This document shows positions 11,144 through 46,316 of a DNA stretch of 64,000 bases, in pieces; the first letter of the stretch is position 1; the number at the start of each line of letters is the position of its first letter. Source of the stretch: Paeniglutamicibacter kerguelensis. GTDB taxonomy: Bacteria; Actinomycetota; Actinomycetes; Actinomycetales; Micrococcaceae. A model generated the notes under the pieces. That model searched no databases. It worked only from the letters and a program-made list of their open reading frames with translations, and was not told the origin of the DNA. The position numbers were made by a program, and so were the translations under genes. The stretch lies in contig NZ_JAGIOF010000001.1 of the NCBI RefSeq assembly GCF_017876535.1, forward strand, positions 3,720,001-3,784,000, read 5' to 3'.

Positions 11144-11173
11144 TTCGGAGTATGTGGAAGACCGGGAACATGG

Positions 11174-12649
11174 CTAGATGATTTCCGGTTTCCATGACGG
11201 ATTACTCTTCCGGAAGCTGTCGACGATGTCTTGCATTTTCTTGCCGGCGTCTTGCCAGGCTTCCTTGGTGTTTCGGTTCTCCAACAGGATCTCCTGGAAC
11301 ATCACGCCGTCGACTGCGGGGGCTGCCCAAATCTGTGAACCGAATGGAGCCAAATTCGTGATTCGTTTTTCGTACTTTCCGTCGACTACCGCACCCATGC
11401 TGACGGAAGCCGTCATGGAGTTTGGGGCGCAATCCATAAAGGTCTGAACCCAGTCGCCATGCTTCTTGAAGAATTCTTCCTTGGGTGTTGCCAGCTCTTT
11501 CTTGAACTCCGCCATGACACTCTTCAACGGTGGGAGCAGGTGGCCGGGAACCGTTTTCGCGAAGGCGAGTGCATCGGGACCTGTGGTCAGCCGCTTCAAG
11601 AATTCGCGTGCCATCTCCGGGTTGGCTGTCTTCGAATAGATCGCGTACTGCTGGCTTGAGCCAAAGTGCAGATCTCCGGTCATGAAGTCTCCGGCCGGGA
11701 TGCGCATGACGCCTGTCTTTGCGGCCAGTTCCGGGTCACGCTCTGCGATGACGGCTCCCATGCGTCCGGGGAATGTGGCAAAGGCAGCTTGGCCGGCCGT
11801 GTATGCCGAAACGATGTCTCCGAATGCAGCGTTGTGCATGGATTTCGGTGCAAACTTCATGACTGATACGAATTTTTCAACGGCGCCGAGGACATCGGGG
11901 TTGTTGAAAGTGACGTTGCCTTCACGGTCGAAGTAGTCGTGGCCTGACTGGTAGATGTACGGAGCAAAGAACTGCAGGGGCAGCTGCGGGGTCGGGCCGA
12001 CTGCCATGGCCATGCCGGCGATCCCGTCCTTGCCGTGGAGGGTTTCGATGGCGTTGTAGTACTCGTCGAAGGTCTTGGGGACGGTTAGCCCGGCACCTTC
12101 CAACAGATCCTTGCGGTAGTAGACCAGCGACGAATTGGATTGCAGCGGCATGGCAACGTCGTGTCCATCGACGATGATGCGGGTGCCGTCCATGAAATCA
12201 TCGGCCCCGATCTCTTGGATCAGATCATCCAGGTTCGACAGATGACCGGCACGAGCGAAGTCGGGGAATGAACTCACCGCCGGGGAGAAGATTCCGACAT
12301 CCACCTTGTTCTGGAATGCTGTCGTGAGGTACTGGAGCTGGTTGGCATCAGCGTAGACGGTTACCTTGACGTCCATGTCGGGAAAGTCTTTTTTGAAGTT
12401 CTCAATTGTCAGGTTGTAGAAGGCGAGTGTGGCCGGATCGTTTTCTACCGTGTACAGCGGAATGACGTTGCTGGTCTTTCCTGGCGAGCCAGCGTTTGAA
12501 GCGGTACCCCCGGCACAGGCGCTGAGGAGCACCGAGGCCGAAAGACCCATGGCGCCTGCAAGGAATCCTCGGCGTCCAATGTCTCCATTGACCAAACGCT
12601 TTTTGAGGTTCCGTAGAGTTGCGTGTTCGCTTTCCATTCCAGCCTTCAT
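11174..12649 (-). CDS. ABC transporter substrate-binding lipoprotein (CUT1-type), Tat/lipobox
   Basis: A 491-residue extracytoplasmic binding protein. The N-terminus has a twin-arginine segment (GDIGRRGFLAGAMG) followed by a lipobox ending LLSAC near residue 39, so it is exported and lipid-anchored. The body is a type-1 extracellular solute-binding fold (TVENDPATLAFYNLTIENFKKDFPDMDV, LYYNAIETLHG, AAFATFPGRMGAV). The family suggests an oligosaccharide, but the operon with an opine-dehydrogenase-like gene argues for some other ligand. The start at 12,649 is chosen because AAAGGAG lies 7 bases upstream. Only 2 bp separate it from the preceding gene. Confidence 0.9.
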   Translation of the reverse strand: MKAGMESEHATLRNLKKRLVNGDIGRRGFLAGAMGLSASVLLSACAGGTASNAGSPGKTSNVIPLYTVENDPATLAFYNLTIENFKKDFPDMDVKVTVYADANQLQYLTTAFQNKVDVGIFSPAVSSFPDFARAGHLSNLDDLIQEIGADDFMDGTRIIVDGHDVAMPLQSNSSLVYYRKDLLEGAGLTVPKTFDEYYNAIETLHGKDGIAGMAMAVGPTPQLPLQFFAPYIYQSGHDYFDREGNVTFNNPDVLGAVEKFVSVMKFAPKSMHNAAFGDIVSAYTAGQAAFATFPGRMGAVIAERDPELAAKTGVMRIPAGDFMTGDLHFGSSQQYAIYSKTANPEMAREFLKRLTTGPDALAFAKTVPGHLLPPLKSVMAEFKKELATPKEEFFKKHGDWVQTFMDCAPNSMTASVSMGAVVDGKYEKRITNLAPFGSQIWAAPAVDGVMFQEILLENRNTKEAWQDAGKKMQDIVDSFRKSNPSWKPEII

Positions 12650-12651
12650 TG

Positions 12652-13680
12652 TCAGACTCCTTTGGGTAGTGCGAGGTGATCGAGGAACAGGTCGGTGGTA
12701 ATCGGATCGGCTTCCAGGGGGACGCCAACCGCGAGAAGTTCTATGTTGCCGAGCAACGCGTCCATTGCCGGTGTTTCTATCCCCAAGGTCCTGGCCAAGG
12801 AAGCCCACTGCGCCACGCCGAATGGGACGTCGTCAGCGATATACCGGTAGTCGAGACTTGGTGGGGATGGAACCCGCTCGAAATTGGCGAAGTTGAGCAG
12901 GCACTCGACAATTCCATTGCCCGCCATGCCTTCTTCCCCGTAGAAACGAATCATCCATTCACGAACGGTGAGTGCCTCGGCTCCGACGCGTCGAGCAATT
13001 TCGATTCGTTCGGCATCTATTCGTTCGATGAGACGTCCAGCGGCAGGTGACAACCCATTGCGGTAGAAATTGAATTCTTCGCCATTCTCAACACGGATCG
13101 CGTTGAGTAGCACCACGCTGGGGTGAATCATATGGTTCGTGTTGGACAGAGACGTTGTGCTCAAATCGCTCGCGGTAAGTTCCGGCAGGAAGCGCTCGAA
13201 CAAGCTCAATAGTTCCTGTGTCGCAACAAGCGATTCAGCGGCGAACGGGAGGGAATGCTTGAGTGTGTGAGATCTAAGGTTTCCGTTCGCGATGGTTCCC
13301 GAGACGGGGAATCCGGTGGTCTCTGCCAGGCGTGGTGGAACCAACGACCATTCCTCGAACCACTTCTTGACCCGCAAAACGCCACCAAATCCGCCTGGTG
13401 CAAGCAACAGCGGCTTGCCGCAAAGCGCAAAGCGAAGTGGTTCAATGGCTTCACGAAGCCTGCGCGACTCGGTGACGACGATTGCGGCTTCGAATTGTTG
13501 GCTCGCTGCTTCCCGAACCGATAGCGAAATGACGTCCACTGCCACCAAGCCGCCATCTCGTTCTACTGCTACGACTGGAACTTGATTGCTTGCACTGAGA
13601 TACACCATCTCGCCAGAAACGGATGCAACATATCCAGCAACGTTGACAGCTTGCTGGTCTCCAAAAATAAGAATGGACAA
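12652..13680 (-). CDS. Opine/octopine dehydrogenase-family NAD(P) enzyme
   Basis: A 342-residue protein. The C-terminal domain carries the octopine dehydrogenase signature NTNHMIHPSVVLLNAIRVENG (residues about 180-200) with the catalytic-type HP pair. A long helical bundle follows (GRLIERIDAERIEIARRVG). The N-terminal Rossmann part starts SILIFGDQQAVNVAGYVAS, with a degenerate glycine motif. The family joins or splits amino acid-keto acid secondary amines (opines) with NAD(P)H. The TTG start at 13,680 has GGAGG 6 bases upstream. It is the first gene of the six-gene operon, opposite the GntR gene, and the operator-like repeat at 13,737-13,752 overlaps its promoter. Confidence 0.72.
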   Translation of the reverse strand: MSILIFGDQQAVNVAGYVASVSGEMVYLSASNQVPVVAVERDGGLVAVDVISLSVREAASQQFEAAIVVTESRRLREAIEPLRFALCGKPLLLAPGGFGGVLRVKKWFEEWSLVPPRLAETTGFPVSGTIANGNLRSHTLKHSLPFAAESLVATQELLSLFERFLPELTASDLSTTSLSNTNHMIHPSVVLLNAIRVENGEEFNFYRNGLSPAAGRLIERIDAERIEIARRVGAEALTVREWMIRFYGEEGMAGNGIVECLLNFANFERVPSPPSLDYRYIADDVPFGVAQWASLARTLGIETPAMDALLGNIELLAVGVPLEADPITTDLFLDHLALPKGV

Positions 13681-19141: not shown

Positions 19142-22100
19142 TTAGCGCGCCACGGCGTTGGCCGAAGTGAATACGTTGACAGGCATTTCGCGCTGCAATT
19201 TCCATGTAATTGCGATCGGATTGGAACCTTGGTGCTTGACGTAGTCGACTGCACCCAAACAGGTGAAGGGCACAACCATCCCGTCAGCATCCTTGGCAAC
19301 GTCGCGTGTGAAAAGCAGGATGTGTGAATCGTGGTCCTTGCGGTTCAAGTAGCGTCGGCCAGTCGGGCTGGTTGGTGACGTTGCGTTCTGCGACTCCCAG
19401 TGGAAAAGACGCGGGCTGATCGCATAGTCCTTGTAGAGCGTGTTGGGATTGTGAACGGACTCGTCCTTGTCCAACGTCACGAAGAGAGCATCGGCACTCG
19501 CCTGTGAGCACCAGGCAACGCCCTCGCGGTGATTGACCCCCTTGCCTTGTTCCAAGGAACCATATTCAAGCGCCGCGAGCACCTCGGATCGCCGATACGT
19601 GGCGTGGGAGTACAGCGGAACCTGCTGCAATCCCAGCGGCAGCCCCTTCGGCGCGTGCGGGCTTCGAGCCACTCCACGCGCGAATGCAGCAAGCAGCTCC
19701 TGAACCAGGTACCCATTGGCACGAATACGATCTAGCCCGTCGTCGTAGGTGGCAAAGCCTCCGCCGTTGTCCCAGAACGTGAAGAACAGCATGCGCGCGA
19801 ATACCTGTTTCCGATCCCCCAGTTCCGCATAGCGTGGGGCGTCCGTAGAGAGCAGGTCGGAATATGCCTCGGCACGCTCGGCATCATCAACGTGAAGGAA
19901 ACCCGTGACCCGCTTGAGCAGGTCCCGCTCTTCGTCCTGCTGGGCGACGCCGAACTCAACCAGGTTTTCCTCCCATGGCGAGCGCGCGGAGACCAGTCCT
20001 GCCCGGCGAATCAGATCTGTCCAGGAAGCCCCCGTTTTGCGGTAGATGTCCTTGACGTCCCGGCCGGATTCTTCAAGATAGTCGTCCAGTCCAAGCAACC
20101 CATGCGACCTGATCTCACGAACCAGCGCTGGCTTGTTGAGCTTGAGTTGGGAACGAATGTTATCCAACACGATGGTGCGCGCCACCCGGTCAAGCATGAG
20201 TTGGCATCCGGAGGGCAGCCCGGGCGCACCGTCATCAATGATGCGTTCCAGCTTCTTGCGTGGAACATCCAGCAAGGCGCGGTACTTGACGTCAAAACGG
20301 AACTCCCGGCGTTGTTGCCCGATGAAGTCCAGCACGGTGAGCACTGCCTTGTCGTCGGCTCGACGGAGTCCACGACCGAGCTGCTGGAGGAAAATGGTCG
20401 AGCTCTGGGTCGGACGCAGCAGGAGGATCGTGTCGATCTCCGGCACGTCGAGTCCCTCGTTGAAGAGGTCGACGGCGAAGATGCAGTTCAGTTCACTGGC
20501 ACGCAGCTTGGCCAGCGCTTCCTCGCGTTCCTCGGTGCTCGAGTTTCCCGAAACCGCCGCCGAAGGGATGCCAGCCTCGTTGAAGACCTTCGCCATGTAG
20601 TTTGCGTGTTGGACCGAGACACAGAAACCCAGCGCTCGCATCATGGAGGTGCTGAGCACCTTGTCGCGAAGTTCGTTGATGATCTTCAGCGCACGCATGT
20701 CGTTGCCGGTGTACACGTTGCTCAGCTGCTCCAGGTCGTAGGACCCTCGCTTCCACTCAATGGCGCTGAGGTCGACGTCGTCCGCCACCCCGAAGTAGTG
20801 GAAGGGAACCAGCAAGTCGGCGTCGAGTGCGTCCCACAGCCGCAGCTCCGAGGCAATGCGACCATCGAAGAAGGTATCCGCCACATTGATGCCGTCGCCG
20901 CGTTCGGGTGTTGCCGTGAGTCCTAGTAATTCGCTCGGCAACAGGTGTTCAATGAGCTTGCGGTACGAGGTCGCCTCGGCATGATGGAATTCGTCGATCA
21001 CCACGACGTCGAAGGCTTGTTGGTCGATTTTGGAGAGTCCAAGTGCTGCCAAGGACTGGACGCTGGCAAACACGTGTTTCCACGCCACAGGCCTTTGCCC
21101 ATCGACGAACATCTCGCCAAAGGATCCCTTGCCCAAGACCTTGCGATACGTTTTCATGGATTGCTCAAGGATTTCCTTGCGGTGTGCCACAAACAAGAGC
21201 GTGAGCTGCTGTCCAGCCGCTTCGCACAGTCGTTTGTAGTCCAGCGCTGCCAGGACTGTCTTGCCGGTCCCAGTTGCGGCAACCACGAGATTGCGATGCT
21301 CGTTGCGGTTGGTCCGGGCTGCGTCGAGCTCTTCGAGCATCTCCTTCTGGTGAAGCAACGGAAGCACTTCAAGCCCGGTGGATCCGAGCATCCGCTCCGC
21401 CGTCGTTCCACCGGCACGTTTCAACGCCGAATCCAGCCGCTCTGCATCCGTATCGGGATCGTAAGGAACGAAGGCGTCGTCTTCCCAATAGCTGTCGAAG
21501 GTCAGCGCGAACTTTTGCAGTAGTCCTGGCGTCGCCGCACCCGAGAGCCGGACATTCCATTCGAGGCCGTCAAGCAGCGCCGGCCTGCTGAGGTTGGAGC
21601 TTCCAACGTACGCGGTATCAAATCCCGAATTGCGGTGGAACATCCATGCCTTCGCGTGAAGTCTCGTCGCATTCGTCTCGTAGTTGATGCGGACTTCTGC
21701 ACCGAAACGGCGAACCAATTCGTCGATGGCATGGCGTTGGGTGGCGCCCATGTAGGTCGTAGTGATGACCCGTATCGGAATGCCATGGTCCTTGATCGCC
21801 TCAAGCGACTCCGAAAGCAGTCTCAGCCCTTCCCATTTGATAAAGGCGCACAACAGGTCAACACGATCCGCTGAGGAAAGTTCGGCCCGTAGTTCAGCGG
21901 CCAGCTGCGGGTCTTCGCGACTGTTCGTAAGCAAGGCTGCAGAACTCAATGAGGTTTGCGGGCGTTTGAACGACCGAACACGAACACCATTGTCGCGTTG
22001 CAGCTCCATGAGCTTCTGAGGCCCAGGAAGCACGTCTTCAGCGTGCCCGACAAGGTCAAGCAGCTGATTGGTCAGCGTAATCATTTGATCAGCTTCGAGC

Positions 22101-22294
22101 ACACTCAACCGTGCTTCAATCGCGTGTCCGAGGAAACGAGCCAGTTCGCCCGGTGCGTTTTCGACCGCGACCGATTCCACGGACCACTTGTAGCCGTTAA
22201 GGGGCTCAAGCCTCTCTGCCAGACGATCGGTCAGCAAGCTCTCAAAAATTCCTTCACCCAAGTCGAACTCGCTATTTACTCCGGGAGTGTCCAT
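19142..22294 (-). CDS. PLD nuclease - SF2 helicase - DUF3427 protein
   Basis: A 1050-residue multidomain protein. An N-terminal PLD-type phosphodiesterase half-site (RLHAKAWMFH near residue 215, then YVGSSNLS) is followed by a superfamily 2 helicase with Walker A ATGTGKT (near 336), the DEFHHA box (near 434), LTATPER, and QQLGRGLRR (motif VI). A C-terminal DUF3427 region of about 450 residues follows. This architecture occurs in many actinobacteria and is suspected of nucleic acid restriction, but its role is not settled. It is a single gene, convergent with IclR, beside a serine recombinase and at the border of the defence-rich region. Base composition is like its neighbours. Confidence 0.88.
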   Translation of the reverse strand: MDTPGVNSEFDLGEGIFESLLTDRLAERLEPLNGYKWSVESVAVENAPGELARFLGHAIEARLSVLEADQMITLTNQLLDLVGHAEDVLPGPQKLMELQRDNGVRVRSFKRPQTSLSSAALLTNSREDPQLAAELRAELSSADRVDLLCAFIKWEGLRLLSESLEAIKDHGIPIRVITTTYMGATQRHAIDELVRRFGAEVRINYETNATRLHAKAWMFHRNSGFDTAYVGSSNLSRPALLDGLEWNVRLSGAATPGLLQKFALTFDSYWEDDAFVPYDPDTDAERLDSALKRAGGTTAERMLGSTGLEVLPLLHQKEMLEELDAARTNRNEHRNLVVAATGTGKTVLAALDYKRLCEAAGQQLTLLFVAHRKEILEQSMKTYRKVLGKGSFGEMFVDGQRPVAWKHVFASVQSLAALGLSKIDQQAFDVVVIDEFHHAEATSYRKLIEHLLPSELLGLTATPERGDGINVADTFFDGRIASELRLWDALDADLLVPFHYFGVADDVDLSAIEWKRGSYDLEQLSNVYTGNDMRALKIINELRDKVLSTSMMRALGFCVSVQHANYMAKVFNEAGIPSAAVSGNSSTEEREEALAKLRASELNCIFAVDLFNEGLDVPEIDTILLLRPTQSSTIFLQQLGRGLRRADDKAVLTVLDFIGQQRREFRFDVKYRALLDVPRKKLERIIDDGAPGLPSGCQLMLDRVARTIVLDNIRSQLKLNKPALVREIRSHGLLGLDDYLEESGRDVKDIYRKTGASWTDLIRRAGLVSARSPWEENLVEFGVAQQDEERDLLKRVTGFLHVDDAERAEAYSDLLSTDAPRYAELGDRKQVFARMLFFTFWDNGGGFATYDDGLDRIRANGYLVQELLAAFARGVARSPHAPKGLPLGLQQVPLYSHATYRRSEVLAALEYGSLEQGKGVNHREGVAWCSQASADALFVTLDKDESVHNPNTLYKDYAISPRLFHWESQNATSPTSPTGRRYLNRKDHDSHILLFTRDVAKDADGMVVPFTCLGAVDYVKHQGSNPIAITWKLQREMPVNVFTSANAVAR

Positions 22295-22588: not shown

Positions 22589-23212
22589 ATGTCACCGCAC
22601 CTGGTCGGGTACGCCCGCGTCTCCACCAACCAACAAGACCTCAGCTCCCAGCAAGCCGGCCTCAAGGCCCTCGGCGTCCCGGACGACCTGGTCTACGTCG
22701 ACCACGGCCTCACCGGACGCAACCGCGAACGCCCCGGACTCCAACAAGCCCTCGCCGCCTGCCGCGCCGGCGACACCCTGGTGGTCACCAAGCTCGACCG
22801 CCTCGCCCGTTCCCTGCCCGACGCCCGCGACATCGTCGAGGACCTCACCAAGCGCAACGTCAAGCTCAGCCTCGGCGGCTCCATCCACGACCCCACCGAC
22901 CCCGTCGGCAAACTCCTCTTCAACGTCCTGGCCATGGTCGCCGAATTCGAATCCGACCTCATCCGCGCCCGCACCCGCGAAGGCATGCAAATCGCCAAGG
23001 CCAAGGGAAAGCTCCGCGGCAAGCAGCCCAAGCTCTCGAAGGCCCAGGAAAAGCACCTCGTCGCCCTCCACCGCGGAGGCCAGCACACCAGCGCGGAAAT
23101 CGCCGAGCTGTTCGGGGTCGCCCGGAGTACGGTGTACCGCATCGTGCAACGGACACCATCGAAAGTGCTGAAATTTCCTAATAGCGACTACGAGGACAGT
23201 CCCAGCACGTGA
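22589..23212 (+). CDS. Serine recombinase (resolvase/invertase family)
   Basis: A 207-residue recombinase. The N-terminal catalytic domain shows VGYARVSTNQQD (nucleophilic serine near residue 12), DTLVVTKLDRLARSL, and LLFNVLAMVAEFESDLIRARTREGM. A C-terminal helix-turn-helix follows (HTSAEIAELFGVARSTVYRIV, about residues 165-188). A -10-like TACACT 11 bases before the ATG suggests a leaderless or near-leaderless mRNA. It cuts and joins DNA through a serine-phosphate link at a short dyad site. No second transposase gene is next to it, so it may be a relic of the element that brought the flanking defence genes. Confidence 0.9.
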   Translation: MSPHLVGYARVSTNQQDLSSQQAGLKALGVPDDLVYVDHGLTGRNRERPGLQQALAACRAGDTLVVTKLDRLARSLPDARDIVEDLTKRNVKLSLGGSIHDPTDPVGKLLFNVLAMVAEFESDLIRARTREGMQIAKAKGKLRGKQPKLSKAQEKHLVALHRGGQHTSAEIAELFGVARSTVYRIVQRTPSKVLKFPNSDYEDSPST

Positions 23213-23420: not shown

Positions 23421-24647
23421 TTAATGCTCTATTGACTCCAGTATTCGCGCCCACATAGGTAAATGAAGGCTATTGTCTTCGAGGCGTTGTATAACCTTTT
23501 GAGGTTGATTAAGCGATTCAACTGCATCGTTGAACCTTCGATAGTCCGCTAGCAATCGTCCAGTCACATCGGCTGTCGACAATTGCGACCATTCTTGGAT
23601 TTCCCGCGCACGCGCATAAACCGAATGCCGCATAAGGGAATGGTATTCCAGCGAAATTGGGGACTTCGATTCGCATTCCAGGCAAGCGCATGCGACGAGA
23701 TCGGGAAACTGTTCGTAGAGGATCTGGGCGATGTCCACTGACACATAACGATGCAGAATAGAAAGATAGAATCGAGCGGGCGGTGCCCCTGACGAAGGCA
23801 ACTCGACCCAGTTACGATGTTCCCCAAACCCAATCCCGTGAGAAGCCCCCGTCAAACCGAATCGAGCAAAAAGAACGGCCAGGAATCCGCCGTACAATGC
23901 AAAAACGCTTTGCCCCCTCGCGGCCGCGGCCTTAATTGCCTCGCCGTAGTCAACCAAATCCCGTTCTGATCCAACTCGAAATTCATCTAAGTCACTGACC
24001 CAAGCAACGATCTCGCGATCATCAACTTGCGCGGCAAGTTCCGACCATACGCGGGGAGACTCGGCCGCAATAACGCGACGAAGCAAACCTAATTCCTCGA
24101 CATGCCTGGCCTCGATTACGGTTGCTTCCCAAATAGCATTAGAAACCTGCGCCCAACCATCGTCGGCTTGCTTCGCCATTAGATACGGAGGCAAGACGAA
24201 CAACGGACGCTCCTTATCTTCCGATAATATCTTCTCGCCTAAACGTTTCGCATATTTATCAAATGTTTTTGATTGAACATTATCAAAATTAATATTAAAC
24301 TTCAGCCAATTTATGGCAATAGTTTTAATTATATCTTTGGTAAAATCGGAAGGGGTCACCCCTCCGTCCTTCAATAGAACATGGGAAACACCCAAAATTT
24401 CAGCCAACATTTGGTGTGATTTTTTTGGCTTCTTTAGCTTATTTTGAAAAAGCGGAAAACGAGAATCGATTACGTAAGGCTCTTTAGATCGCGCCGAAAG
24501 TGTCAGAACAAAACCTTTGGTTCCTTCAGACTGAAAAGCAGCGATAGTACCAGGCACGATAAGGCCATTAAACGAATCTTTCAACTCTCTCATTGTTGCT
24601 TGATCAGTTGAGCCGTAACTTAAGTAGTGCTGAAAACTATTAAACAT
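23421..24647 (-). CDS. TGT-like (tRNA-guanine transglycosylase fold?) protein with CxCxxC motif
   Basis: A 408-residue protein of unproven function. Residues 320-325 form CACLEC with histidines at 336 and 341, resembling the CxCxxC...H zinc site of tRNA-guanine transglycosylases and the DNA-modifying DpdA group. Upstream, WVSDLDEF (216-223) and FALYGGFLAVLFARFGLTGA (249-268) followed by SHGIGFGEHR look like barrel strands ending in Gly-rich loops. If the resemblance holds it would exchange a base in tRNA or DNA. It is the last gene of a four-gene operon, 8 bp overlapping the nuclease gene, with GGAG before its ATG. Local GC falls to about 40% in 24,240-24,600, unlike the chromosome, which suggests acquisition. 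The family call is tentative. Confidence 0.5.
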   Translation of the reverse strand: MFNSFQHYLSYGSTDQATMRELKDSFNGLIVPGTIAAFQSEGTKGFVLTLSARSKEPYVIDSRFPLFQNKLKKPKKSHQMLAEILGVSHVLLKDGGVTPSDFTKDIIKTIAINWLKFNINFDNVQSKTFDKYAKRLGEKILSEDKERPLFVLPPYLMAKQADDGWAQVSNAIWEATVIEARHVEELGLLRRVIAAESPRVWSELAAQVDDREIVAWVSDLDEFRVGSERDLVDYGEAIKAAAARGQSVFALYGGFLAVLFARFGLTGASHGIGFGEHRNWVELPSSGAPPARFYLSILHRYVSVDIAQILYEQFPDLVACACLECESKSPISLEYHSLMRHSVYARAREIQEWSQLSTADVTGRLLADYRRFNDAVESLNQPQKVIQRLEDNSLHLPMWARILESIEH

Positions 24648-25092
24648 TCATTTCTCCAACTAACTTGAGTCTTACGACTGACCGATCTCGTGCAGTTCGA
24701 TCGCAGGAAGGGGTTCCTGGAGTCACCAGGATTTTTGCTTGGTCACCAATGATCGTAATCACACCTACCCCGAAGCGCGACGCATCGTTGAGGCTAGAAT
24801 CGCGCGGGGTTCTGCCAATTACAATCCATGATCTATCGAAAGTTTGGCGGTTATATACCGCTTGTTCCAGCACGCGTCCAAAGTCATCCAGTTTGAGTTC
24901 AAACGCACTGAGCACGCCGCTCTTTGTCAAAGCCGCTAAATCTACCCGTCGACCACTAACTGGAAATTCGCGCACCAAGACGGTGTCTCCTCGAAGCCAT
25001 CTTCGCGCCCTCAGAAAGTCTACGAGTATGGGCATCATGCGGGACTCACCTCTCGTATCAAACGCGGCGTCATGACGGGCAAACGCGATCAT
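24640..25092 (-). CDS. PD-(D/E)XK nuclease-like small protein
   Basis: A 150-residue protein carrying the core of the PD-(D/E)XK fold. Asp51 lies in GRRVDLAAL, Glu65-x-Lys67 in FELKL, and Gln77 in EQAVYN, followed by a helix and the strand SWIVIGR. The spacing D-x13-E-x-K with a following Q is the restriction-endonuclease/NERD-like pattern. A single-domain nuclease of this size usually depends on a partner for specificity. The ATG at 25,092 overlaps the membrane-protein stop by 4 bp, and its own stop overlaps the next gene by 8 bp, so all are made as a set. Confidence 0.7.
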   Translation of the reverse strand: MIAFARHDAAFDTRGESRMMPILVDFLRARRWLRGDTVLVREFPVSGRRVDLAALTKSGVLSAFELKLDDFGRVLEQAVYNRQTFDRSWIVIGRTPRDSSLNDASRFGVGVITIIGDQAKILVTPGTPSCDRTARDRSVVRLKLVGEMNV

Positions 25093-25712
25093 CGCGTTCC
25101 TCGGATTTCAACAGTCTCGGGCACTACTCCATCCTCAATTCCTTGCTGGATACGTTGATCTAAGAACGCAAACCAAAGGAAAACCAATACAAGTAATGTG
25201 GCAACAATTGCAGTCATGACTATTAATGTCATCCACTGCATTTTATCACTGTAATTTAGCCAATAACTCATTGTAGCTGTTCCGCAAAATATCGGAAAGG
25301 CTAATAGTGAATATTTTATAATACTACATGAGACTAATAAATATTTTAGATTCTTTGAAATGCTTTGGCGTTCTTTTATCAGCTTAATACTCTTCTGGGC
25401 TGGCTTGATTGCGGAGCTGGGTTCTGCAATAACAGTCAATGGATCAAAGAGGGCATCGTGAAGCGGGAGTATCAAATTTATTTCTTCTCGCAGTTGCTCT
25501 AAGGCGCCGAAGGCGTTTTCGGTAAGCCCCGCGAACGCAATCCTAACTTTGGTAGTCAGGCGTTCCCTATTCTTTTCCCTCATGTGAACAGCACTGACGA
25601 ACCCCCCGATGCCAAATATGGTCAGGACTACCCCAAGGCTCAGAACAAGATCCATATTTGGAATATCACGAGCTACTAATTCAGTTAACTGAGTAAGACT
25701 AGGCACGATCAC
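25089..25712 (-). CDS. Membrane protein with central coiled segment, unknown function
   Basis: A 207-residue protein with one N-terminal helix (residues about 20-43, NMDLVLSLGVVLTIFGIGGF), a charged, partly coiled stretch (about 45-120), and two C-terminal helices (about 125-147 and 157-182). No enzyme motif was seen. In a defence setting this layout would fit a membrane effector or anchor, but that is inference. The GTG start at 25,712 lies 14 bp inside the preceding gene; ATG at 25,655 is an alternative that would remove 19 residues. AT-rich codon use matches its operon partners rather than the chromosome. Confidence 0.65.
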   Translation of the reverse strand: MIVPSLTQLTELVARDIPNMDLVLSLGVVLTIFGIGGFVSAVHMREKNRERLTTKVRIAFAGLTENAFGALEQLREEINLILPLHDALFDPLTVIAEPSSAIKPAQKSIKLIKERQSISKNLKYLLVSCSIIKYSLLAFPIFCGTATMSYWLNYSDKMQWMTLIVMTAIVATLLVLVFLWFAFLDQRIQQGIEDGVVPETVEIRGTR

Positions 25713-26238
25713 CTAGCACTTCATCCCTGATAATGGATTTTGTTGTGAAATTATCATATTTCATATATACATAACGTATTAATTGACGTAAGGGTAAATT
25801 GACAAACTGATTCTTGAAGTCTCGGAGCTCATCTAGAGCATCTTTCGATAATTCTCCGCTGAGCGCGTTGAAGTATCGCCATCCTCGATCGGTCAACTGA
25901 AAGTCTCTGGTGGAGTACGGGTCGGGATTTAACCCGATCCCTTCTCGCTGTTCCCAGGAGTCGGTAGTATCAGATGATTCCTTTGAGGAGTCCAGCAGTA
26001 ATCCTGCGGCACCAAGTGTATCCACTGCTTGATATATTTTTTGAGAAAATGGGCCGAAGTTGTACGCTTCGAAATCAGCATCTTGGTCAAGCCAATTCTT
26101 GCTATTCGTTTCTCGTTCAAGTAGGAATATGAGTTTTTCGAGCCTGGTAATGCCGCTCAAAGATCCGCCCGGGTTCTTCGGTGAACCTGAACCGATGAGA
26201 AGAATTATTGCATCATCGATTTCAATTGGATCACTCAT
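25699..26238 (-). CDS. Winged-helix protein (YwgA/SocA-like), first gene of the four-gene operon
   Basis: A 179-residue protein. The pattern GITRLEKLIFLLERE, FEAYNFGPFSQKIYQAV, then FQLTDRGWRYF reads as a winged-helix core like that of YwgA or SocA/Panacea-type proteins, which act as antitoxins, chaperone-adaptors or regulators. The ATG at 26,238 has GGAAGG 4 bases upstream; an earlier in-frame start at 26,265 is weaker. An imperfect palindrome at 26,278-26,295 lies 40 bp upstream and could be its operator. It heads the overlapping operon and is the natural sensor or regulator. The family label is a pattern judgement and may be wrong. Confidence 0.6.
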   Translation of the reverse strand: MSDPIEIDDAIILLIGSGSPKNPGGSLSGITRLEKLIFLLERETNSKNWLDQDADFEAYNFGPFSQKIYQAVDTLGAAGLLLDSSKESSDTTDSWEQREGIGLNPDPYSTRDFQLTDRGWRYFNALSGELSKDALDELRDFKNQFVNLPLRQLIRYVYMKYDNFTTKSIIRDEVLGDRA

Positions 26239-26277
26239 TTTACCTTCCTTATTATATATAAACATCTTTGAAACTTA

Positions 26278-26889: not shown

Positions 26890-26972
26890 TTGGCCTATAG
26901 GACCGCTCCCTGGGAATCCAGGGCTACTGCCATCAGGGAAGATTTGTGCGGATCAATGCCAATGATGGTCAT
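26890..26972 (-). pseudogene. IS110-family transposase, N-terminal fragment
   Basis: Read on the minus strand from the ATG at 26,972 the sequence gives MTIIGIDPHKSSLMAVALDS and then stops in frame eight codons later. IGIDPHK...AVALD is the DEDD-transposase N-terminal signature of IS110-type elements (the first catalytic Asp is in IGID). Nothing of the catalytic core remains, so the element is a dead remnant. Confidence 0.65.
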
Positions 26973-27397: not shown

Positions 27398-28078
27398 ATG
27401 GATTCTGTGACAACGAGGGAAGCGGCCGACCGCCTGGGCATCAGCGATGTCGCGGTGCGCAAGATGCTGCGCACGGGCCGGCTCACCGGCGCGGGCACCG
27501 CCGGCCGCACCCTGCTCATCGACCCCGCTTCCCTGCAGCGGGTTGCCGATTCCGGCAAACATGCCGGCAGGCTGTGGAGCCCCAAGACGGCATGGGCGGC
27601 CCTGTGCCTGCTCTCCGGGCAGAAAACACCATGGATCAGCGCGGCGGAAAAATACCGCCTGAAGACCCGATTGGGTGAAATCCGTGCCGAGGACGTGCAC
27701 CTGCTGGCCAGGAACCGCGCCGCGGTGAAGCGCTACCGGGCAACCCCGGCGGCCGTGGACCTGCTCCGCCCACGGCTCATGCCGACCGCGGGTTCGGCGA
27801 TGCACGATGAGGAAACGGCCGCACGCTTCGGTCTCTCCGGCGGCGGCGGGTTTGCCGAGGGCTATGCAACGGCCGGGGATGGCGAGAAGTTTGCCACCGC
27901 ACTGGGCATGGTCGAGGACCCCAACGGCAACGTGGTGATCCGTGAAACGGCCCTCGCCGAACCGTTCAATTCCGGCCGAACCCCCCTGGCCGCGGTCGCG
28001 GTGGACCTGATGGATTCCCTGTCCACCCGGGAACGCTCCGCAGGCATCCGCGTCCTCGAGGAACTGCTCCATGGCTGA
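27398..28078 (+). CDS. AbiEi-like helix-turn-helix antitoxin candidate
   Basis: A 226-residue protein. An excisionase/MerR-type helix-turn-helix opens it (TTREAADRLGISDVAVRKML, residues about 5-24, then GRTLLIDPASLQRVA). A helical middle and C-terminal part follows (LAEPFNSGRTPLAAVAVDLMDS, then LSTRERSAGIRVLEELL), consistent with AbiEi_4/AbiEi-type antitoxins paired with nucleotidyltransferases. It overlaps the next gene by 8 bp. Together they resemble a type IV toxin-antitoxin module with phage-defence potential. GC content is like the host, so the pair is not recent AT-rich cargo. Confidence 0.65.
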   Translation: MDSVTTREAADRLGISDVAVRKMLRTGRLTGAGTAGRTLLIDPASLQRVADSGKHAGRLWSPKTAWAALCLLSGQKTPWISAAEKYRLKTRLGEIRAEDVHLLARNRAAVKRYRATPAAVDLLRPRLMPTAGSAMHDEETAARFGLSGGGGFAEGYATAGDGEKFATALGMVEDPNGNVVIRETALAEPFNSGRTPLAAVAVDLMDSLSTRERSAGIRVLEELLHG

Positions 28079-28901
28079 ACCAACAAGCCTGGACCGGGAC
28101 GGGGACCGCCCCACCTGGGAAGCCCCCACGCCTCCGGGCGGATGGGGCTCGCCCTGGCCGCAGTGCCTCGAGCTGGCCCGGGCGCTGCCCGCCAGCAAAT
28201 GGACCCTGGTCGGCGGACTCATGGTGCAGTTGCACGCCGCCGTCGCGGGAATGGACGTCACCCGGCCGACCTCCGACGTCGACATCATCCTGCATGTCGA
28301 AACGGGCTCGGTTACCGCCGGCGAACTCACCGAAACGTTGCGCACGCTCGGATACAGCCTGCAGGCCTCGATCGATGGCGACGCCCCGGCCCACCGCTTC
28401 GTGCGGGGCACCGAGCAGATCGATGTCATGGTCGCCGACCACGGGGTGGCCAAGCCGCCGCTGTTCCTGGGCCGGCGGGAGGTGTTCCGGGTCCCCGCCG
28501 GGACACAGGCCCTGCAGCGAACCGTCTACTGCAGCATCGACACCGGCGAGGGAGCCGTGAGGGTCAGCATCCCCAACACGCTTGGCGCGCTGGTCCTGAA
28601 GGGGGCGGCCTATAGGGAGGACTCCCGCGACGGGCGCCGCCACCTGGACGATGCGGCGGTGCTGACTGCCACGCTCAAGGACCCGCTCGGGCTGGTGCCG
28701 GAATTGAAGGGCAGCGATCGCAGCCGGATCATCACCCTGCACCGGGCCTTGGCCGACCCGTTGTTTCCGTCCTGGCTCATGCTGGAGGAAAAGGACCGGA
28801 CCCACGGCCAGGACGCCCTGCGCATCCTGGCCACCAACCCGCAGGACTTCGCGCTCCCGACGGGGTTGCCCGGCGGGTTGGGACCGAACACCGGGCACTA
28901 G
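28071..28901 (+). CDS. AbiEii-like nucleotidyltransferase (toxin candidate)
   Basis: A 276-residue protein with a polymerase-beta-type nucleotidyltransferase core. LVGGLMVQLHAAVAG (residues about 45-59) supplies the Gly-Gly turn, SDVDIILHV (about 67-75) supplies the paired acidic residues D-x-D, and DVMVADHG near 119 gives the third acid. Enzymes of this group attach nucleotides to protein or tRNA acceptors. The gene overlaps its helix-turn-helix partner by 8 bp, the usual antitoxin-toxin order. The fold is well supported by motifs; the toxin role is inferred from the pairing. Confidence 0.72.
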   Translation: MAEPTSLDRDGDRPTWEAPTPPGGWGSPWPQCLELARALPASKWTLVGGLMVQLHAAVAGMDVTRPTSDVDIILHVETGSVTAGELTETLRTLGYSLQASIDGDAPAHRFVRGTEQIDVMVADHGVAKPPLFLGRREVFRVPAGTQALQRTVYCSIDTGEGAVRVSIPNTLGALVLKGAAYREDSRDGRRHLDDAAVLTATLKDPLGLVPELKGSDRSRIITLHRALADPLFPSWLMLEEKDRTHGQDALRILATNPQDFALPTGLPGGLGPNTGH

Positions 28902-34201: not shown

Positions 34202-34217
34202 ATCAGTAGATGCTGAT
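34202..34217. promoter_or_regulatory. Operator-like repeat at the cmtR start
   Basis: ATCAG-TAGATG-CTGAT overlaps the ATG at 34,210. A wider pair, TTGATCAG/CTGATCAA (34,180-34,187 and 34,213-34,220), encloses a TATCAT -10-like box. Overlap with the start codon suggests a leaderless, autorepressed transcript. Confidence 0.5.
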
Positions 34218-34596
34218 CAATCAAAATGTTCCGGCGGACACCTGCGGCCTGGATCCCGCGACCGCCCTGTTCCGTTCCCTCGGCGATCCGGTTCGCCTGA
34301 AAATCGTCAAGCGCATGGCCAGCGGCGAGGTGCGGGTCGGAGACCTCACCCGCGAGCTCGGCCTGCCCCAATCGACGGTGTCCATGCACGTGGCCTGCCT
34401 GCGAGACTGCGGCCTGGTCGAAGGACGCTCCGAAGGCCGCAGCGTCTACTACTCGCTGTCCCGTCCGGAACTGATGGACATGCTCGCCCAGGCCGAGATC
34501 CTGCTCGCCGCCACCGGCAACGCGGTCAGCCTGTGCCCGAACTACGGCCCCGACGGCACCACCGCCCCGATGGTTGAAAAGGAGAACGCCCGATGA
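34210..34596 (+). CDS. cmtR: CmtR-type Cd/Pb-sensing ArsR/SmtB repressor
   Basis: A 128-residue winged-helix repressor (RSLGDPVRLKIVKRMASGE, then LGLPQSTVSMHVACLRDCGL). Cys63 and Cys67 in the recognition helix plus Cys109 in the tail (SLCPNYG) reproduce the three-cysteine Cd(II)/Pb(II) site known for mycobacterial CmtR. In the absence of metal it represses, and metal binding releases DNA. It is the first gene of the Cd/Pb cassette, overlapping the ATPase gene by 4 bp. The operator-like repeats at its start are the likely autoregulatory site. Confidence 0.85.
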   Translation: MLINQNVPADTCGLDPATALFRSLGDPVRLKIVKRMASGEVRVGDLTRELGLPQSTVSMHVACLRDCGLVEGRSEGRSVYYSLSRPELMDMLAQAEILLAATGNAVSLCPNYGPDGTTAPMVEKENAR

Positions 34597-36539
34597 GCGA
34601 CGCCTGCGGCTGCAGCGACGAAAAAACCGAAACCGGTGAAGCCGAGGAGCCGTTGGGCTTCTGGCAGGTGACCGAGGTGCGGGCGGCCGCCGTGGCCGGC
34701 GTGCTGCTGTTGGCGGCATGGATCACCTCGCTGGCCGGAGGCCCCCGGGTCGTGACGCTGCCGCTGGAACTCGGCGCGCTGCTGGTTGCGGCCTGGACGT
34801 TCGTGCCCTCCACGCTCCGGCGCCTGTTCAAGGGCAAAATCGGGGTCGGCACACTGATGACGATCGCCGCAATCGGCGCCGTCGCCCTTGGCCAGTTCGA
34901 GGAAGCGGCCATGCTGGCGTTCCTGTATGCGATTTCCGAAGGTCTGGAAGAATACTCGCTGGCCAAAACCCGGCGCGGCCTGCGGGCACTGCTGGACCTG
35001 GTCCCGGCCGAGGCCAGGGTCCTGCGCAACGGGACCGAGACGGTTGTTTCCCCGACGGACCTTGTCCCCGGGGACCGCATGGTCGTCCGCCCCGGGGAAC
35101 GCCTGGCCACCGACGGACGAATCGTCCTTGGTCGCACCTCGCTGGACACCTCGGCACTCACCGGCGAATCAGTCCCCGTCGAGGCCGGCCCCGGCTCCGA
35201 GGTCTACGCCGGGTCCATCAACGGCACCGGCCCGCTGGAAGTTGAAGTGACCAGCACCGCGGAGAACAACTCGCTGGCCAAGATCGTACACATCGTCGAG
35301 GCCGAGCAATCGCGCAAGGGACCGGGACAGCGACTGGCCGACTCCATCGCCAAGAAACTGGTCCCCGGCATCCTGATCGCCGCCGCCCTGATCATCGCCT
35401 TCGGCTTCATCGTCGGGGAACCCGTGCTCTGGTTTGAACGCGCCCTGGTCGTGCTGGTCGCGGCATCCCCCTGCGCGCTGGCCATCTCCGTGCCCGTCAC
35501 CGTCGTGGCCTCGGTGGGTGCCGCCAGCCGGATCGGGGTGCTCATCAAGGGCGGCGGGGCGCTGGAAACCCTCGGCAAGATCCGCACCATCGCCCTGGAC
35601 AAGACCGGGACCCTGACCCGGAACAAGCCCTCCGTGATCGAGGTCCTCGGCACCCCCACCACCACCCGCGAACAGGTCCTGGCCCTCGCGGCCGGGCTGG
35701 AGGCCCGCAGCGAACACCCGCTCGCCCGCGCGATCCTCGCCTCGACCACCGAACGGGCCTCGGTCACCGACGTGGACACGGTTCCCGGAGCTGGCCTGGA
35801 GGGGCTGCTTGATGGCAGGGTCATCCGGCTCGGACGCCCCGGATGGATCGAGGCCGGTTCCCTGGCCCCGGACATCGAGCGGATGCAACACGCCGGAGCC
35901 ACCGCGGTGCTCATCGAGGACAACGGAGCGGTCATCGGCGCCATCGGCGTCCGCGACGAGCTGCGCCCCGAAGCCCGCGAGGTCATCGCCAGGCTCACGG
36001 CCTCCGGATACACCACGGCCATGCTCACCGGGGACAACCTCATCACCGCAACGGCCCTGGGCAAGGCCGCGGGAATCACCGAGATCCACGCGGACCTGCG
36101 CCCCGAGGACAAGGCGGAAATCATCCGCACACTCAAGTCGCGCCAGCCCACCGCAATGGTCGGTGACGGCGTCAACGACGCCCCGGCGCTGGCCACCGCG
36201 GACACCGGCATCGCCATGGGCGCCATGGGCACCGACGTCGCCATCGAAACCGCGGACATCGCCCTGATGGGCGAGGACCTGCACCACCTGCCCCAGGTCC
36301 TTGACCACGCACGCAACACCCGGCGCATCATGCTCCAGAACGTGGGCCTGTCCCTGGCACTGATCGCGGTGCTGATCCCCTTGGCGCTCTTCGGGGTCCT
36401 GGGACTCGCCGCCGTGGTGCTCATCCACGAACTGGCCGAAATCGTCGTGATCGCCAACGGCGTGCGCGCCGGACGGCTCCGCCGCAAGACAGCGCTGCGG
36501 ACCATCCAGCCGGCATCAGCCCTGGAGCCCGTGGCATGA
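34593..36539 (+). CDS. P1B-type heavy-metal ATPase with SPC motif (Cd/Pb/Zn/Co efflux)
   Basis: A 648-residue pump. The membrane metal site is SPC (AASPCALA, near residue 292) instead of CPC, and the late helix has HELAEIVVIANG (near 612). This combination places it in the P1B-4-like branch (Co2+, and often Cd2+ or Zn2+). Catalytic landmarks are intact: TGESV in the actuator domain, DKTGT (near 336), the HP pair SEHPLA, and GDGVNDAP (near 523). The N-terminus has CGC (residues 5-7) but no full metal-binding domain. Control by a CmtR-type sensor argues for Cd or Pb as the physiological cargo. Overlaps of 4 bp on both sides tie it to cmtR and lspA. Confidence 0.9.
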   Translation: MSDACGCSDEKTETGEAEEPLGFWQVTEVRAAAVAGVLLLAAWITSLAGGPRVVTLPLELGALLVAAWTFVPSTLRRLFKGKIGVGTLMTIAAIGAVALGQFEEAAMLAFLYAISEGLEEYSLAKTRRGLRALLDLVPAEARVLRNGTETVVSPTDLVPGDRMVVRPGERLATDGRIVLGRTSLDTSALTGESVPVEAGPGSEVYAGSINGTGPLEVEVTSTAENNSLAKIVHIVEAEQSRKGPGQRLADSIAKKLVPGILIAAALIIAFGFIVGEPVLWFERALVVLVAASPCALAISVPVTVVASVGAASRIGVLIKGGGALETLGKIRTIALDKTGTLTRNKPSVIEVLGTPTTTREQVLALAAGLEARSEHPLARAILASTTERASVTDVDTVPGAGLEGLLDGRVIRLGRPGWIEAGSLAPDIERMQHAGATAVLIEDNGAVIGAIGVRDELRPEAREVIARLTASGYTTAMLTGDNLITATALGKAAGITEIHADLRPEDKAEIIRTLKSRQPTAMVGDGVNDAPALATADTGIAMGAMGTDVAIETADIALMGEDLHHLPQVLDHARNTRRIMLQNVGLSLALIAVLIPLALFGVLGLAAVVLIHELAEIVVIANGVRAGRLRRKTALRTIQPASALEPVA

Positions 36540-37045
36540 GCGGCCAAACCACGGACCATATCGCGGCGCCGGGGCGACCGGCGCGCACTGCCCGTACCGT
36601 CATGATCCTGTGTGCCGCCGGGCTGGTCGCTATCGATCTGGCCGTCAAGGCGTTGGCCGAGGCGCTGCTTTCCACCGGTGAGACGATCGACCTGGGGCTG
36701 ATGAATCTCCGGCTGCTCTACAACCCCGGCGTCGCATTCAGCTTTGGCGCGAACCTTCCCGGCTGGGTCGTCATCGCCGTCACCGGGCTGATCATCACGG
36801 CCATGGCCTGGTACTCGCTCACCACGGCCCCCGCCATGGGCCGGCTTTCCCGCACCGGCGCGACGCTGTTGCTCGGCGGGGCCGTCGGCAACTTCATTGA
36901 CCGGCTCGACGGGCGCGGCGTCGTGGACTACCTGCACAGCGGCTGGTTCGCGACCTTCAACCTCGCCGATGTCTTCGTCACCACCGGAGTGGTGCTCTAC
37001 GCCCTGGGCACACTTCGTTCTGCACCGCCACAACACGGCAAATGA
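36536..37045 (+). CDS. lspA: Lipoprotein signal peptidase (LspA) in a metal operon
   Basis: A 169-residue membrane aspartyl protease with four helices. The catalytic pair is in GNFIDRLDG and FNLADVFV, with the conserved NPGVAFSFG loop (residues about 61-69). It cleaves lipoprotein signal peptides. A second, metal-associated LspA is known from the pbr lead-resistance operon, where PbrC plays this part, so its presence behind a CmtR/ATPase pair fits a Cd/Pb cassette. It overlaps the ATPase gene by 4 bp and is followed by a strong hairpin. Confidence 0.9.
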   Translation: MSGQTTDHIAAPGRPARTARTVMILCAAGLVAIDLAVKALAEALLSTGETIDLGLMNLRLLYNPGVAFSFGANLPGWVVIAVTGLIITAMAWYSLTTAPAMGRLSRTGATLLLGGAVGNFIDRLDGRGVVDYLHSGWFATFNLADVFVTTGVVLYALGTLRSAPPQHGK

Positions 37046-37086
37046 CCACCGGGTCCCGGGACACACCCGGGCAACTTACCTGACAC

Positions 37087-37118
37087 GATCCGTTGGCCCC
37101 GACCCGGGCCAACGGATC
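37087..37118 (+). terminator. 13-bp hairpin between lspA and the DsbA-like gene
   Basis: GATCCGTTGGCCC (37,087-37,099) pairs perfectly with GGGCCAACGGATC (37,106-37,118). It may end the cmtR-ATPase-lspA transcript or lower expression of the thiol pair downstream. Confidence 0.65.
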
Positions 37119-37175
37119 ACAACCATGCTGCTCGGCCCGCACCGCGGCCATCCAGCCCAATGAACGGAACACCCC

Positions 37176-37877
37176 GTGAACACCAATCCCCCGGCAACCG
37201 ACCGCGCCCCGAAGAAGGCCAAGATCATCGTCTGGGCCCTGCTGGCCGCCGTCGTCGTGGCGGCAATCGTCGGCTATGTCGTTGCGCAGAACAACGCCAG
37301 GACCGCGGCCCACGAGGCCTCGGAAGCCTCCGCTTCCGTCACGGAGGCCCCGGTCGTTCGGGACAACAGCCGGGTGCTCTCCCAGGCGCCGAAGGAAAAG
37401 GCGGTCCTGGTGGAGTTCCTGGACTTCGAGTGCGAGTCCTGCGGCGCGTTCTACCCGATCATCGAGGAGCTGCGCGGCGAATATTCGGAAAACGTCACCT
37501 TCGTCCAGCGGTACTTCCCGCTGCCCGGGCACCTGAATTCCATGAATGCCGCCGTGGCGGTGGAGTCCGCGGCCGAACAGGGCGCCTACGAACCGATGTA
37601 CAAGAAGATGTTCGAGACCCAGGCCCAGTGGGGCGAATCAGCGGACAACAAGAGTGCCGTCTTCCGCACCTACGCCGAAGACCTCGGCCTGGACATGGCC
37701 GCGTACGACCACGCCGTGGGCGACCCCTCCACCCAAGACCGCGTCAAGCTCGACATCGCAGACGGCAAGGCCCTGGGCGTCAGCGGAACCCCGACGTTCT
37801 TCCTCGAGGGAAAGATGCTCACGGTCCAGAGCCTGGAACAGTTCGTCGCCGCCATCGCAGAAGCCGCCGCAAACTAG
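37176..37877 (+). CDS. DsbA-like thiol-disulfide oxidoreductase, membrane anchored
   Basis: A 233-residue protein with an N-terminal membrane anchor (IIVWALLAAVVVAAIVGYVV, residues about 13-32) and an extracytoplasmic DsbA-type thioredoxin fold. The active site CESC is near residue 86 (DFECESCGAFYP), and the cis-proline segment GVSGTPTFFLEG is near 197. It would put disulfides into exported proteins. The VKOR gene 29 bp downstream is its natural electron acceptor. Protection or repair of exported thiol proteins under Cd or Cu stress is a reasonable inference from the neighbours. Confidence 0.87.
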   Translation: MNTNPPATDRAPKKAKIIVWALLAAVVVAAIVGYVVAQNNARTAAHEASEASASVTEAPVVRDNSRVLSQAPKEKAVLVEFLDFECESCGAFYPIIEELRGEYSENVTFVQRYFPLPGHLNSMNAAVAVESAAEQGAYEPMYKKMFETQAQWGESADNKSAVFRTYAEDLGLDMAAYDHAVGDPSTQDRVKLDIADGKALGVSGTPTFFLEGKMLTVQSLEQFVAAIAEAAAN

Positions 37878-37906
37878 CCCGCCGTCCCGAACCTGGAGAA
37901 TACGCC

Positions 37907-38548
37907 ATGACCACACCGGCCACCGACGATCCCGCAGCCGTTCCCCGGCACCCAAGCCCCGGCAGCCCACGCTTTGCCCGCCCGCGCACGTTCGGCTTCC
38001 TGCTATTGGCAACCGGGGCCGTGGGCTGGGTCGCCTCGGCCATCCTCGTCCTGGAGCGCCTGGCCCTGTTCAAGGATTCGGGCCACGTTACCAGCTGCGA
38101 CGTGAACCCGTGGGTCTCCTGCGGGCGGGTCATGGGCACCTGGCAGTCGGAATTGTTCGGCTTACCCAACCCGCTGATCGGCATCGTCGCGTTCGCCGTG
38201 GTCCTGGCCACCGCCATGGTGGTCCTCTCCGGGGCCGCCCCGGGGCGCTGGTACTGGGCCGGGCTGCAGGCCGGGGTGACCCTGGGGACGGTGTTCGTCA
38301 TCTGGCTCTGGAGCCAGGCCCTCTTTGAGATCTACATCCTGTGCCTGTACTGCATGGTGGTGTGGGCGGCGATGATCCCCCTGTTCCTCCTGCTCACGGT
38401 CCGCAACCTCGTCCACGGCGTCATACCCGCACCGCGGGCCGTGGTCCGGTTCGTTGCCGGCTGGGCCGGCACGCTCGTGGCCATCGCCTATGTCGCGGTC
38501 GCCGGATCCGTGTTCCTTCGATTCTTCCCGGCCTTCACCGGCGGATAG
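37907..38548 (+). CDS. Vitamin K epoxide reductase (VKOR)-family membrane protein
   Basis: A 213-residue, five-helix membrane protein. Cysteines 64 and 72 (SCDVNPWVSCG) and the CLYC pair at 146-149 have the VKOR spacing. The first pair shuttles electrons from the thiol partner and the second faces quinone. Bacterial VKORs re-oxidise DsbA-like proteins in organisms lacking DsbB. The ATG at 37,907 follows TGGAG at a spacing of 9. It forms a two-gene unit with the DsbA-like protein and closes the first cassette of the transposon. Confidence 0.88.
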   Translation: MTTPATDDPAAVPRHPSPGSPRFARPRTFGFLLLATGAVGWVASAILVLERLALFKDSGHVTSCDVNPWVSCGRVMGTWQSELFGLPNPLIGIVAFAVVLATAMVVLSGAAPGRWYWAGLQAGVTLGTVFVIWLWSQALFEIYILCLYCMVVWAAMIPLFLLLTVRNLVHGVIPAPRAVVRFVAGWAGTLVAIAYVAVAGSVFLRFFPAFTGG

Positions 38549-38850
38549 CCACCGGTCCCGAGGTACTCCCCGGGAGCGATGCGGCGAGCATCGTACCCCG
38601 CGGGTTCATCTTGCCGCGGTCGAAGGAACCTTTCATCAACAGCCGCCAGGCACCGCTGGAATCAGGGCATTTGGCGTTGAGATCCGCGGTCCCGATTGCC
38701 GTTCCCTACCCGGGACAGCGGCCCAAATGTCACAGGGATCCCGCGTTTACTGCGCTCCAGCGAGTTCTGGAGCTTGGAACTGCGACATTTATCGCTGCAA
38801 ATAATGCGACATTTAGCGGGTTCTGGCACGAATTTCGTGAATGGTGCCGG
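38549..38850. other. Junction spacer between the VKOR gene and the tnpA 3' end
   Basis: There is no gene. A palindrome, CTCCAG/CTGGAG (38,755-38,760 and 38,767-38,772), and the direct repeats listed separately lie here, which suggests an old recombination or resolution site. Confidence 0.5.
38781..38818. repeat. Direct repeat TGCGACATTTA(T/G)CG
   Basis: Copies at 38,781-38,794 and 38,805-38,818 differ by one base and are spaced 24 bp apart, beside the end of tnpA. The spacing suits paired recombinase subsites. Confidence 0.5.
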
Positions 38851-41925: not shown

Positions 41926-41967
41926 ACACCAAGGCTACCGAACAGCACCAAGACCAGCTCAACGAGG

Positions 41968-45593: not shown

Positions 45594-45607
45594 AACCTTG
45601 GCCCCCG

Positions 45608-45651: not shown

Positions 45652-45691
45652 GCCGATCGACAGCATCCGATTGATTTTTGAAGGAAAACCC

Positions 45692-46300: not shown

Positions 46301-46316
46301 AGCTCGGCTGCATCTG

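Follow-up and report, generated by a model that had tools for sequence, protein, structure and literature searches.

In the 64,000-nucleotide stretch of Paeniglutamicibacter kerguelensis DNA analysed here (the window, G000:C1:3720001-3784000, from a genome of 4.8 Mb that is 99.8% complete), four overlapping genes, designated A to D, form a unit that is real, conserved and mobile. Gene A encodes a SocA/Panacea-like protein, B a protein with hydrophobic segments, C a PD-(D/E)XK-type nuclease-like domain and D a protein whose predicted model adopts the barrel fold of tRNA-guanine transglycosylase (TGT). Judged by its genomic context, the unit probably has a role in defence. With somewhat less than even confidence, we propose that it is a mobile, translationally coupled immune operon of abortive type, acting by the mechanism set out below. 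The original prediction, made from the sequence alone, had proposed that a recogniser or modifier, a nuclease and a membrane effector are made together as an abortive or restriction system; the co-occurrence of the genes, the fold of D and the defence genes nearby support that proposal, and it is from these that we infer the function. At 2.8 kb the unit is small, and being conserved and intact it lends itself to direct testing.

A conserved and mobile four-gene unit

The operon comprises the following features:

Gene A, 26238..25699, minus strand: open reading frame (ORF) of 179 aa, SocA/Panacea- and YwgA-like, winged-helix type
Gene B, 25712..25089, minus strand: ORF of 207 aa with hydrophobic segments at 22-40, 125-143 and 163-181
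Gene C, 25092..24640, minus strand: ORF of 150 aa, putative PD-(D/E)XK-type nuclease-like domain, sce7726/P4 cII-like
Gene D, 24647..23421, minus strand: ORF of 408 aa, predicted TGT-fold barrel; conserved residues D61, YGGF 252-255, H270, E276, R278; CxCxxC 320-325, H341
Probable ribosome-binding site AAGGAAGG, 26243..26250, minus strand: 4 bases upstream of the gene A ATG at 26238

The overlaps claimed earlier, of 14 bp (A/B), 4 bp (B/C) and 8 bp (C/D), proved exact. An alternative start of gene A exists at 26265; ATG 26238 is the one preceded by AAGGAAGG. The operon indeed lies in AT-rich DNA unlike that of the host, with a G+C content of 46.1% versus 61.6% in the remainder of the window, and only 9 of 612 operon-sized sliding windows (step 100, those overlapping the operon counted) are equally low. 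Promoter and terminator scans of the operon region returned only chance-level sites.

The co-occurrence of the four genes in other genomes, on which the original prediction depended, was found: the order A-B-C-D is present in 14 of the 15 distinct places located through D, a recurrence beyond what chance would give, and C is present in all 15. These places are the window and the loci L006-L014, L047-L050 and L052. Rows describing the same place were counted once (L002 and L004 are short copies of L006 and L048, L001 and L003 correspond to the window, L045 and L046 to L049 and L010, and L005 and L044 to L050); D is truncated by the contig end in L014, and in L047 A and D are each seen in part only. 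Carriers are distantly related and patchily distributed, and include Arthrobacter, Glaciibacter, Mycolicibacterium and Conexibacter, bins of Solirubrobacterales, Acidimicrobiaceae, Chloroflexi and Latescibacterota, two genomes of the window's order (L048, L049) and one from the sample around G693 (L047). All four genes, each annotated 'hypothetical protein', also reside on the mobilizable plasmid pSI-1 of Arthrobacter sp. AK-1, together with a relaxase and an integrase.

The operon was found in 0.5-1% of the sampled genomes. Searches with alignment A1 (30 rows from 120 listed homologues of D) detected D in 3/295 genomes of the family, 2/396 of the phylum, 3/396 of the order and 2/301 of the phylum of G693, counts that come from overlapping samples and, for the family, phylum and order, include the window's own genome. 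A profile search of contigs with the D alignment yielded nine loci and a single D sequence alone yielded none; among plasmids, D was found in 1 of 72,556 records.

Gene overlap is a recurrent feature of the unit. Across 12 four-gene loci, B and C overlap by 4 bp in 11 and by 8 bp in one. For C/D, an overlap of 8 bp is available in eight loci, among which alternative starts lengthen it in L006, L007, L010 and L048, and the other four have overlaps of 1, 4 or 11 bp or a gap of 7; A and B overlap by 1, 4, 14 or 68. Gene A is the most conserved of the four (median pairwise identity 0.56), followed by D (0.47) and C (0.41), and B evolves fastest (0.29). Pairwise identities over 11 loci correlate at 0.82 for A-C and 0.85 for both A-D and C-D, and at 0.61-0.66 for pairs with B, values that are uncorrected for host phylogeny, which may explain part of them. 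L014 was excluded from this correlation, and L047 and L052 lie outside both the overlap and the identity comparison; for the latter, the position used as the start of A in L006 and L012 is no start codon (overlaps are unaffected), and the first D start was taken where several were listed.

Predicted folds and motifs of the four proteins

The description of D as 'TGT-like' was borne out by a Foldseek search with its predicted model, though sequence models fail to detect TGT. Foldseek lists DpdA (7ui4) at E 4.7e-3; among viral models two rows reached E<=0.001, neither of them a named or characterized protein, and named queuine tRNA-ribosyltransferases followed at ranks 5, 7 and 30. At the sequence level, PF01702, the Pfam TGT family, had no match in D at E up to 1, hhalign of D against eight TGTs (from 11 tgt loci, with L022, L024 and L025 left out) aligned nothing beyond the CxCxxC stretch, and the D profile retrieved nothing useful from the sequences of solved structures. 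Of 7,995 candidates scored, 349 matched D at E<=0.001, a count that includes the record of D itself. In the 120 matches listed, P0051 alone is named as a tRNA-guanine family transglycosylase, the others being nameless or 'hypothetical/uncharacterized protein'.

D61, H270, E276 and R278 are invariant in all 30 rows of A1, and the CxCxxC motif, correctly recognised in the original prediction, occurs in 29. By strand order, D61 closes strand 3, as does the TDSGG Asp of TGT, and nothing in D corresponds to the FDC Asp of TGT. In the modelled active site, H270, E276 and R278 seem to stand in place of the usual nucleophilic Asp. D might accordingly be catalytically dead and act only as a scaffold or nucleic-acid-binding subunit that guides C, much like the second subunit of eukaryotic TGT, which would be compatible with a defence role; the canonical nucleophile of D seems to be missing, and CxCxxC is dispensable in some lineages. 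However, the invariance of the four residues, and their retention in the divergent D' described next, go beyond the needs of a scaffold, and we regard a dead D as rather unlikely.

In the fifteenth place, L050 (5378-9816), A and C precede a longer protein, D', and after a further 17 bp comes a 398-aa protein; an MT-A70 methyltransferase stands upstream of A-C-D', and B is absent. D' is 22-25% identical to D and keeps 51 of 103 near-invariant columns, among them D61, YGGF, H270, E276 and R278. Motifs in the 398-aa protein (GAGxS, NWD, LHGS and paired CxxC) are those that we take to mark SIR2. L050 is possibly a variant of the system with another effector. Within the family of G532, a search for relatives of D' returned 1 of 19, D' itself.

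The link between D and queuosine metabolism was followed in 13 operon-genome handles, which probably represent 12 genomes, since G076 and G689 share tgt coordinates and are apparently one. A canonical tgt is present in 11 of the 13. QueC has some match in five, near full length and strong only in G697 (the Latescibacterota bin); in the other four the best match is short or weak, reaching at most 26.7 bits. No QueC match was found in the window's own, 99.8% complete genome (G000), and G691 (Glaciibacter, completeness not given) has no match to either tgt or QueC. Because a strong full-length QueC match is missing in 12 of the 13 handles, a host-made 7-deazaguanine mark is unlikely there, and D is probably independent of host-made preQ0 in most carriers. 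These data bear on a Dpd-like, modification-based restriction system, in which D would write 7-deazaguanine into host DNA or RNA and C would cut unmarked nucleic acid. The TGT fold of D, the DpdA match and the nuclease core of C agree with such a scheme, and salvaged bases could supply the mark. Yet, besides the scarcity of QueC and the lack of a match to either gene in G691, the TGT nucleophilic Asp seems to be absent from D, and none of the four proteins was hit by a Dpd model at E up to 1; we therefore consider this explanation quite improbable.

The PD-(D/E)XK core attributed to C (D51, E65-x-K67, Q77) is invariant in all 12 aligned C sequences, the window's included, as is E16. With a D...ExK core and the accompanying E and Q, C appears to be a PD-(D/E)XK-type nuclease-like domain whose core is intact. 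It matches NCBIfam sce7726 (NF033832) at E 2.7e-6, but with 27.4 bits against a cut-off of 70, and weakly (E 1e-4) the PADLOC model 'cll' (cII), which 4 of the 12 C sequences match; a weaker PADLOC row, PDC-S11, is taken as a cross-match. Alignment of C with P4 cII by hhalign gave E 1.4e-4 over 99 columns (probability 52), and the P4 record annotates cII as 'sce7726 family protein'. BLASTP of C against P4 cII found nothing, and a Pfam search with C gave no match. The best row for the C profile among solved structures, a designer PPR protein (E 7.1e-5, 27 residues), was judged to be chance, no stretch passing alone.

As had been claimed of a three-helix membrane protein, the window's B has three hydrophobic segments, and among aligned B sequences three segments rise above threshold in 8 of 11 and two in the remaining 3 (the B of L013 was identified by position and alignment, not by phmmer). 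B is possibly a membrane effector. Its weak match to PADLOC ZorA (E 0.048) is taken as a cross-match.

The proposal that A is a YwgA/SocA-like winged-helix protein stood in part: a weak SocA_Panacea match exists, but its score lies below the Pfam cut-off. The A of the relative in L005 reaches 22.7 bits against the same family, for which the cut-off is 25.7. All ten aligned A sequences (the window's and nine homologues) match PADLOC PDC-M19A, a broad model with matches in 38/119 genomes and 3/14 control genomes. All ten also match Specificity_I (best E 2.1e-5) and 4/10 match DarG, rows taken as cross-matches via shared winged-helix-type stretches. Searching solved structures by sequence with the A profile gave nothing useful. 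A is possibly an antitoxin or a sensor. In the former case, A and B could be a toxin-antitoxin pair, with B as membrane toxin and C and D as accessories, which stabilises mobile elements more than it defends. According to an excerpt of PMC8832971, Panacea antitoxins neutralise membrane toxins; A is SocA-like, and one copy of the operon is carried by a mobilizable plasmid. Nevertheless, C accompanies D in all 15 places, B has diverged further than C and D, A scores below the Pfam cut-off, and the L050 variant keeps A, C and D' without B, so that we consider this pair an unlikely account of the whole unit.

Genomic setting and proposed mode of action

The recombinase reported next to the operon, at 22589..23212 on the low-coordinate (D) side, was confirmed as one of the serine type, matching a DNA invertase at E 9.6e-30. 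On the A side lies a 25-codon stretch (MTIIGIDPHKSS...) with a terminal stop (26972..26895, minus strand), which presumably resembles the start of an IS110 transposase. PADLOC identifies a type IV restriction enzyme about 1 kb from the operon (19142..22294, minus strand; 1148.6 bits). L048 has a homologue of this enzyme at a similar distance, about 1 kb, from its own operon copy; the two are 61% identical, and the homologue contains PLD, helicase and DUF3427 domains. In L013, a type ISP/IIG enzyme is one ORF away, and in L012 a HerA-family match lies about 2 kb from the operon and a serine recombinase is also present. Phage-type integrases are found in L006 and L008, and L048 has a fragment resembling that of L006. 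Altogether, restriction, HerA-type or mobility genes stand near at least 7 of the 15 places (the window, L006, L008, L012, L013, L048 and L052). The neighbouring proteins were hand-picked in three sets (seven from the window, ten from flanks, and nine from flanks plus one from the window), and the context therefore gives no rate or enrichment.

Such surroundings also bear on a role outside defence, in which D would bind or repair tRNA, C would trim RNA and the unit would be a horizontally spread accessory function for RNA handling. The TGT fold of D suits this explanation. It fits less well with an operon confined to 0.5-1% of sampled genomes, with the restriction, HerA-type or mobility genes found close by in at least 7 of the 15 places, or with the inclusion of a fast-changing protein with hydrophobic segments, and we consider it quite unlikely.

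In the abortive mechanism that we propose, the TGT-like pocket of D would accommodate a guanine-type base, of either RNA or DNA, which D would then flag or remove, with H270, E276 and R278 apparently replacing the nucleophilic Asp. This action would recruit or license C to cut nucleic acid. B, or the SIR2-like protein in the divergent form, would be the exchangeable killing part, and A would silence the set until phage infection disturbs it. More tentatively still, and as a doubtful proposal, the unit may represent an immune sensor of a new class, in which a TGT-fold protein, with a His/Glu/Arg set for the nucleophilic Asp, uses its guanine pocket to detect or excise a particular base of infected-cell RNA or phage DNA and then sets off the linked nuclease together with an exchangeable effector, a membrane protein or a SIR2-like one. 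If true, the fold of a queuosine base-swapping enzyme would serve immunity, for recognition or attack, independently of the Dpd pathway.

Several observations weigh against the abortive mechanism proposed above. All places were located via D, which means that D comes with A and C; lone copies of A, B or C are uncounted. D had no match among 50,697 phage records, nor in a pattern-based search of IMG/VR. Its structural likeness to TGTs is modest (TM-scores of 0.44-0.48 in the better rows, rmsd >8), and the invariant H270 falls at the place of the strand-8 nucleophilic Asp by strand order only. CxCxxC is lost in the D of P0099, L013, L049 and the plasmid copy. The match of A to SocA_Panacea (PF13274) is weak, at E 0.037 and 15.4 bits with 25.7 needed, and the SIR2 label of the L050 protein found no match in Pfam, with PF13289 or in a PDB sequence search. 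Finally, on visual inspection the L007 and L014 flanks appear ordinary.

Other defence-related genes were seen in the window and in two of the loci. In the window, 53078-54013 (minus strand) encodes a candidate single-gene defence protein, PDC-S18 (E 1.2e-137); its neighbour at 54422-57274 (minus strand) is an ORF that resembles type IIG restriction-methylases and contains a T5orf172 domain. Two overlapping ORFs occupy 27398-28901 (plus strand), the second weakly PDC-M21B-like (E 0.0011) and without a Pfam match. In L013, on the side of the operon opposite the type ISP/IIG enzyme (10877-12675, plus strand), a small ORF is accompanied by a ThiF-domain protein that matches E1-E2 defence models, and about 1 kb downstream of the operon in L009 (10132-11454, minus strand) a trypsin-like protease protein matches RT-Protease_XI defence models. 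The ORFs at 34210-51238 of the window are, by eye, what we take to be a metal-resistance and Tn3-type transposon region.

Comparison with known systems

The original prediction knew of no named system with this set of genes, and neither PADLOC 2.0.0 nor the structure search, which placed D in the TGT fold, assigned the set to one. Similarly, in a literature search confined to open-licence papers, no description of the set was recognised. PDC-M19 was rejected as a name because the A-type model is broad; the likeness is through A only, and no other gene of the operon matched PDC-M19 models.

With TGT and DpdA, D has in common the predicted barrel fold, CxCxxC (in most members) and, by strand order, an Asp resembling that of TDSGG, but it lacks the PF01702 signature and, again by strand order, a counterpart of the FDC Asp, and most operon hosts lack QueC. 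PanAT systems likewise contain a Panacea/SocA-like protein, and their known partners include membrane toxins, as far as the same excerpt goes; here, in contrast, four genes are present, including a nuclease-like and a TGT-fold protein, and A falls below the Pfam cut-off. A BREX-related system likewise has a TGT homologue as part of a defence cluster; an excerpt of PMC12839542 gives it seven components, including PglZ, DUF6079, DUF4007 and HerA/FtsK, and the six components other than TGT are not in the four-gene operon.

Finally, gop-beta-cII of P4 blocks lambda and P1 (according to an excerpt of PMC9122126). C appears to be related to the N-terminal part of cII, whose C-terminal half is absent from C. 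No homologue of Gop was found by hhalign against the single gop sequence (E 0.1 for B and 0.53 for A). Both sets do include a protein with hydrophobic segments, namely B here and gop, which has one, in P4. PF14350 (Beta) had no match at E up to 1 in 30 D sequences, and hhalign of D against 23 Beta sequences (E 0.17 over 19 columns) did not support homology; on re-inspection of the Beta model, TGT was favoured narrowly, within a tie. Judging from the model of a Beta homologue, gop-beta-cII would nonetheless pair cII with a barrel protein, much as C is paired here with the modelled barrel of D. If the proposed immune role of the TGT-like fold is real, the operon would give a concrete, testable link to the poorly understood gop-beta-cII system.

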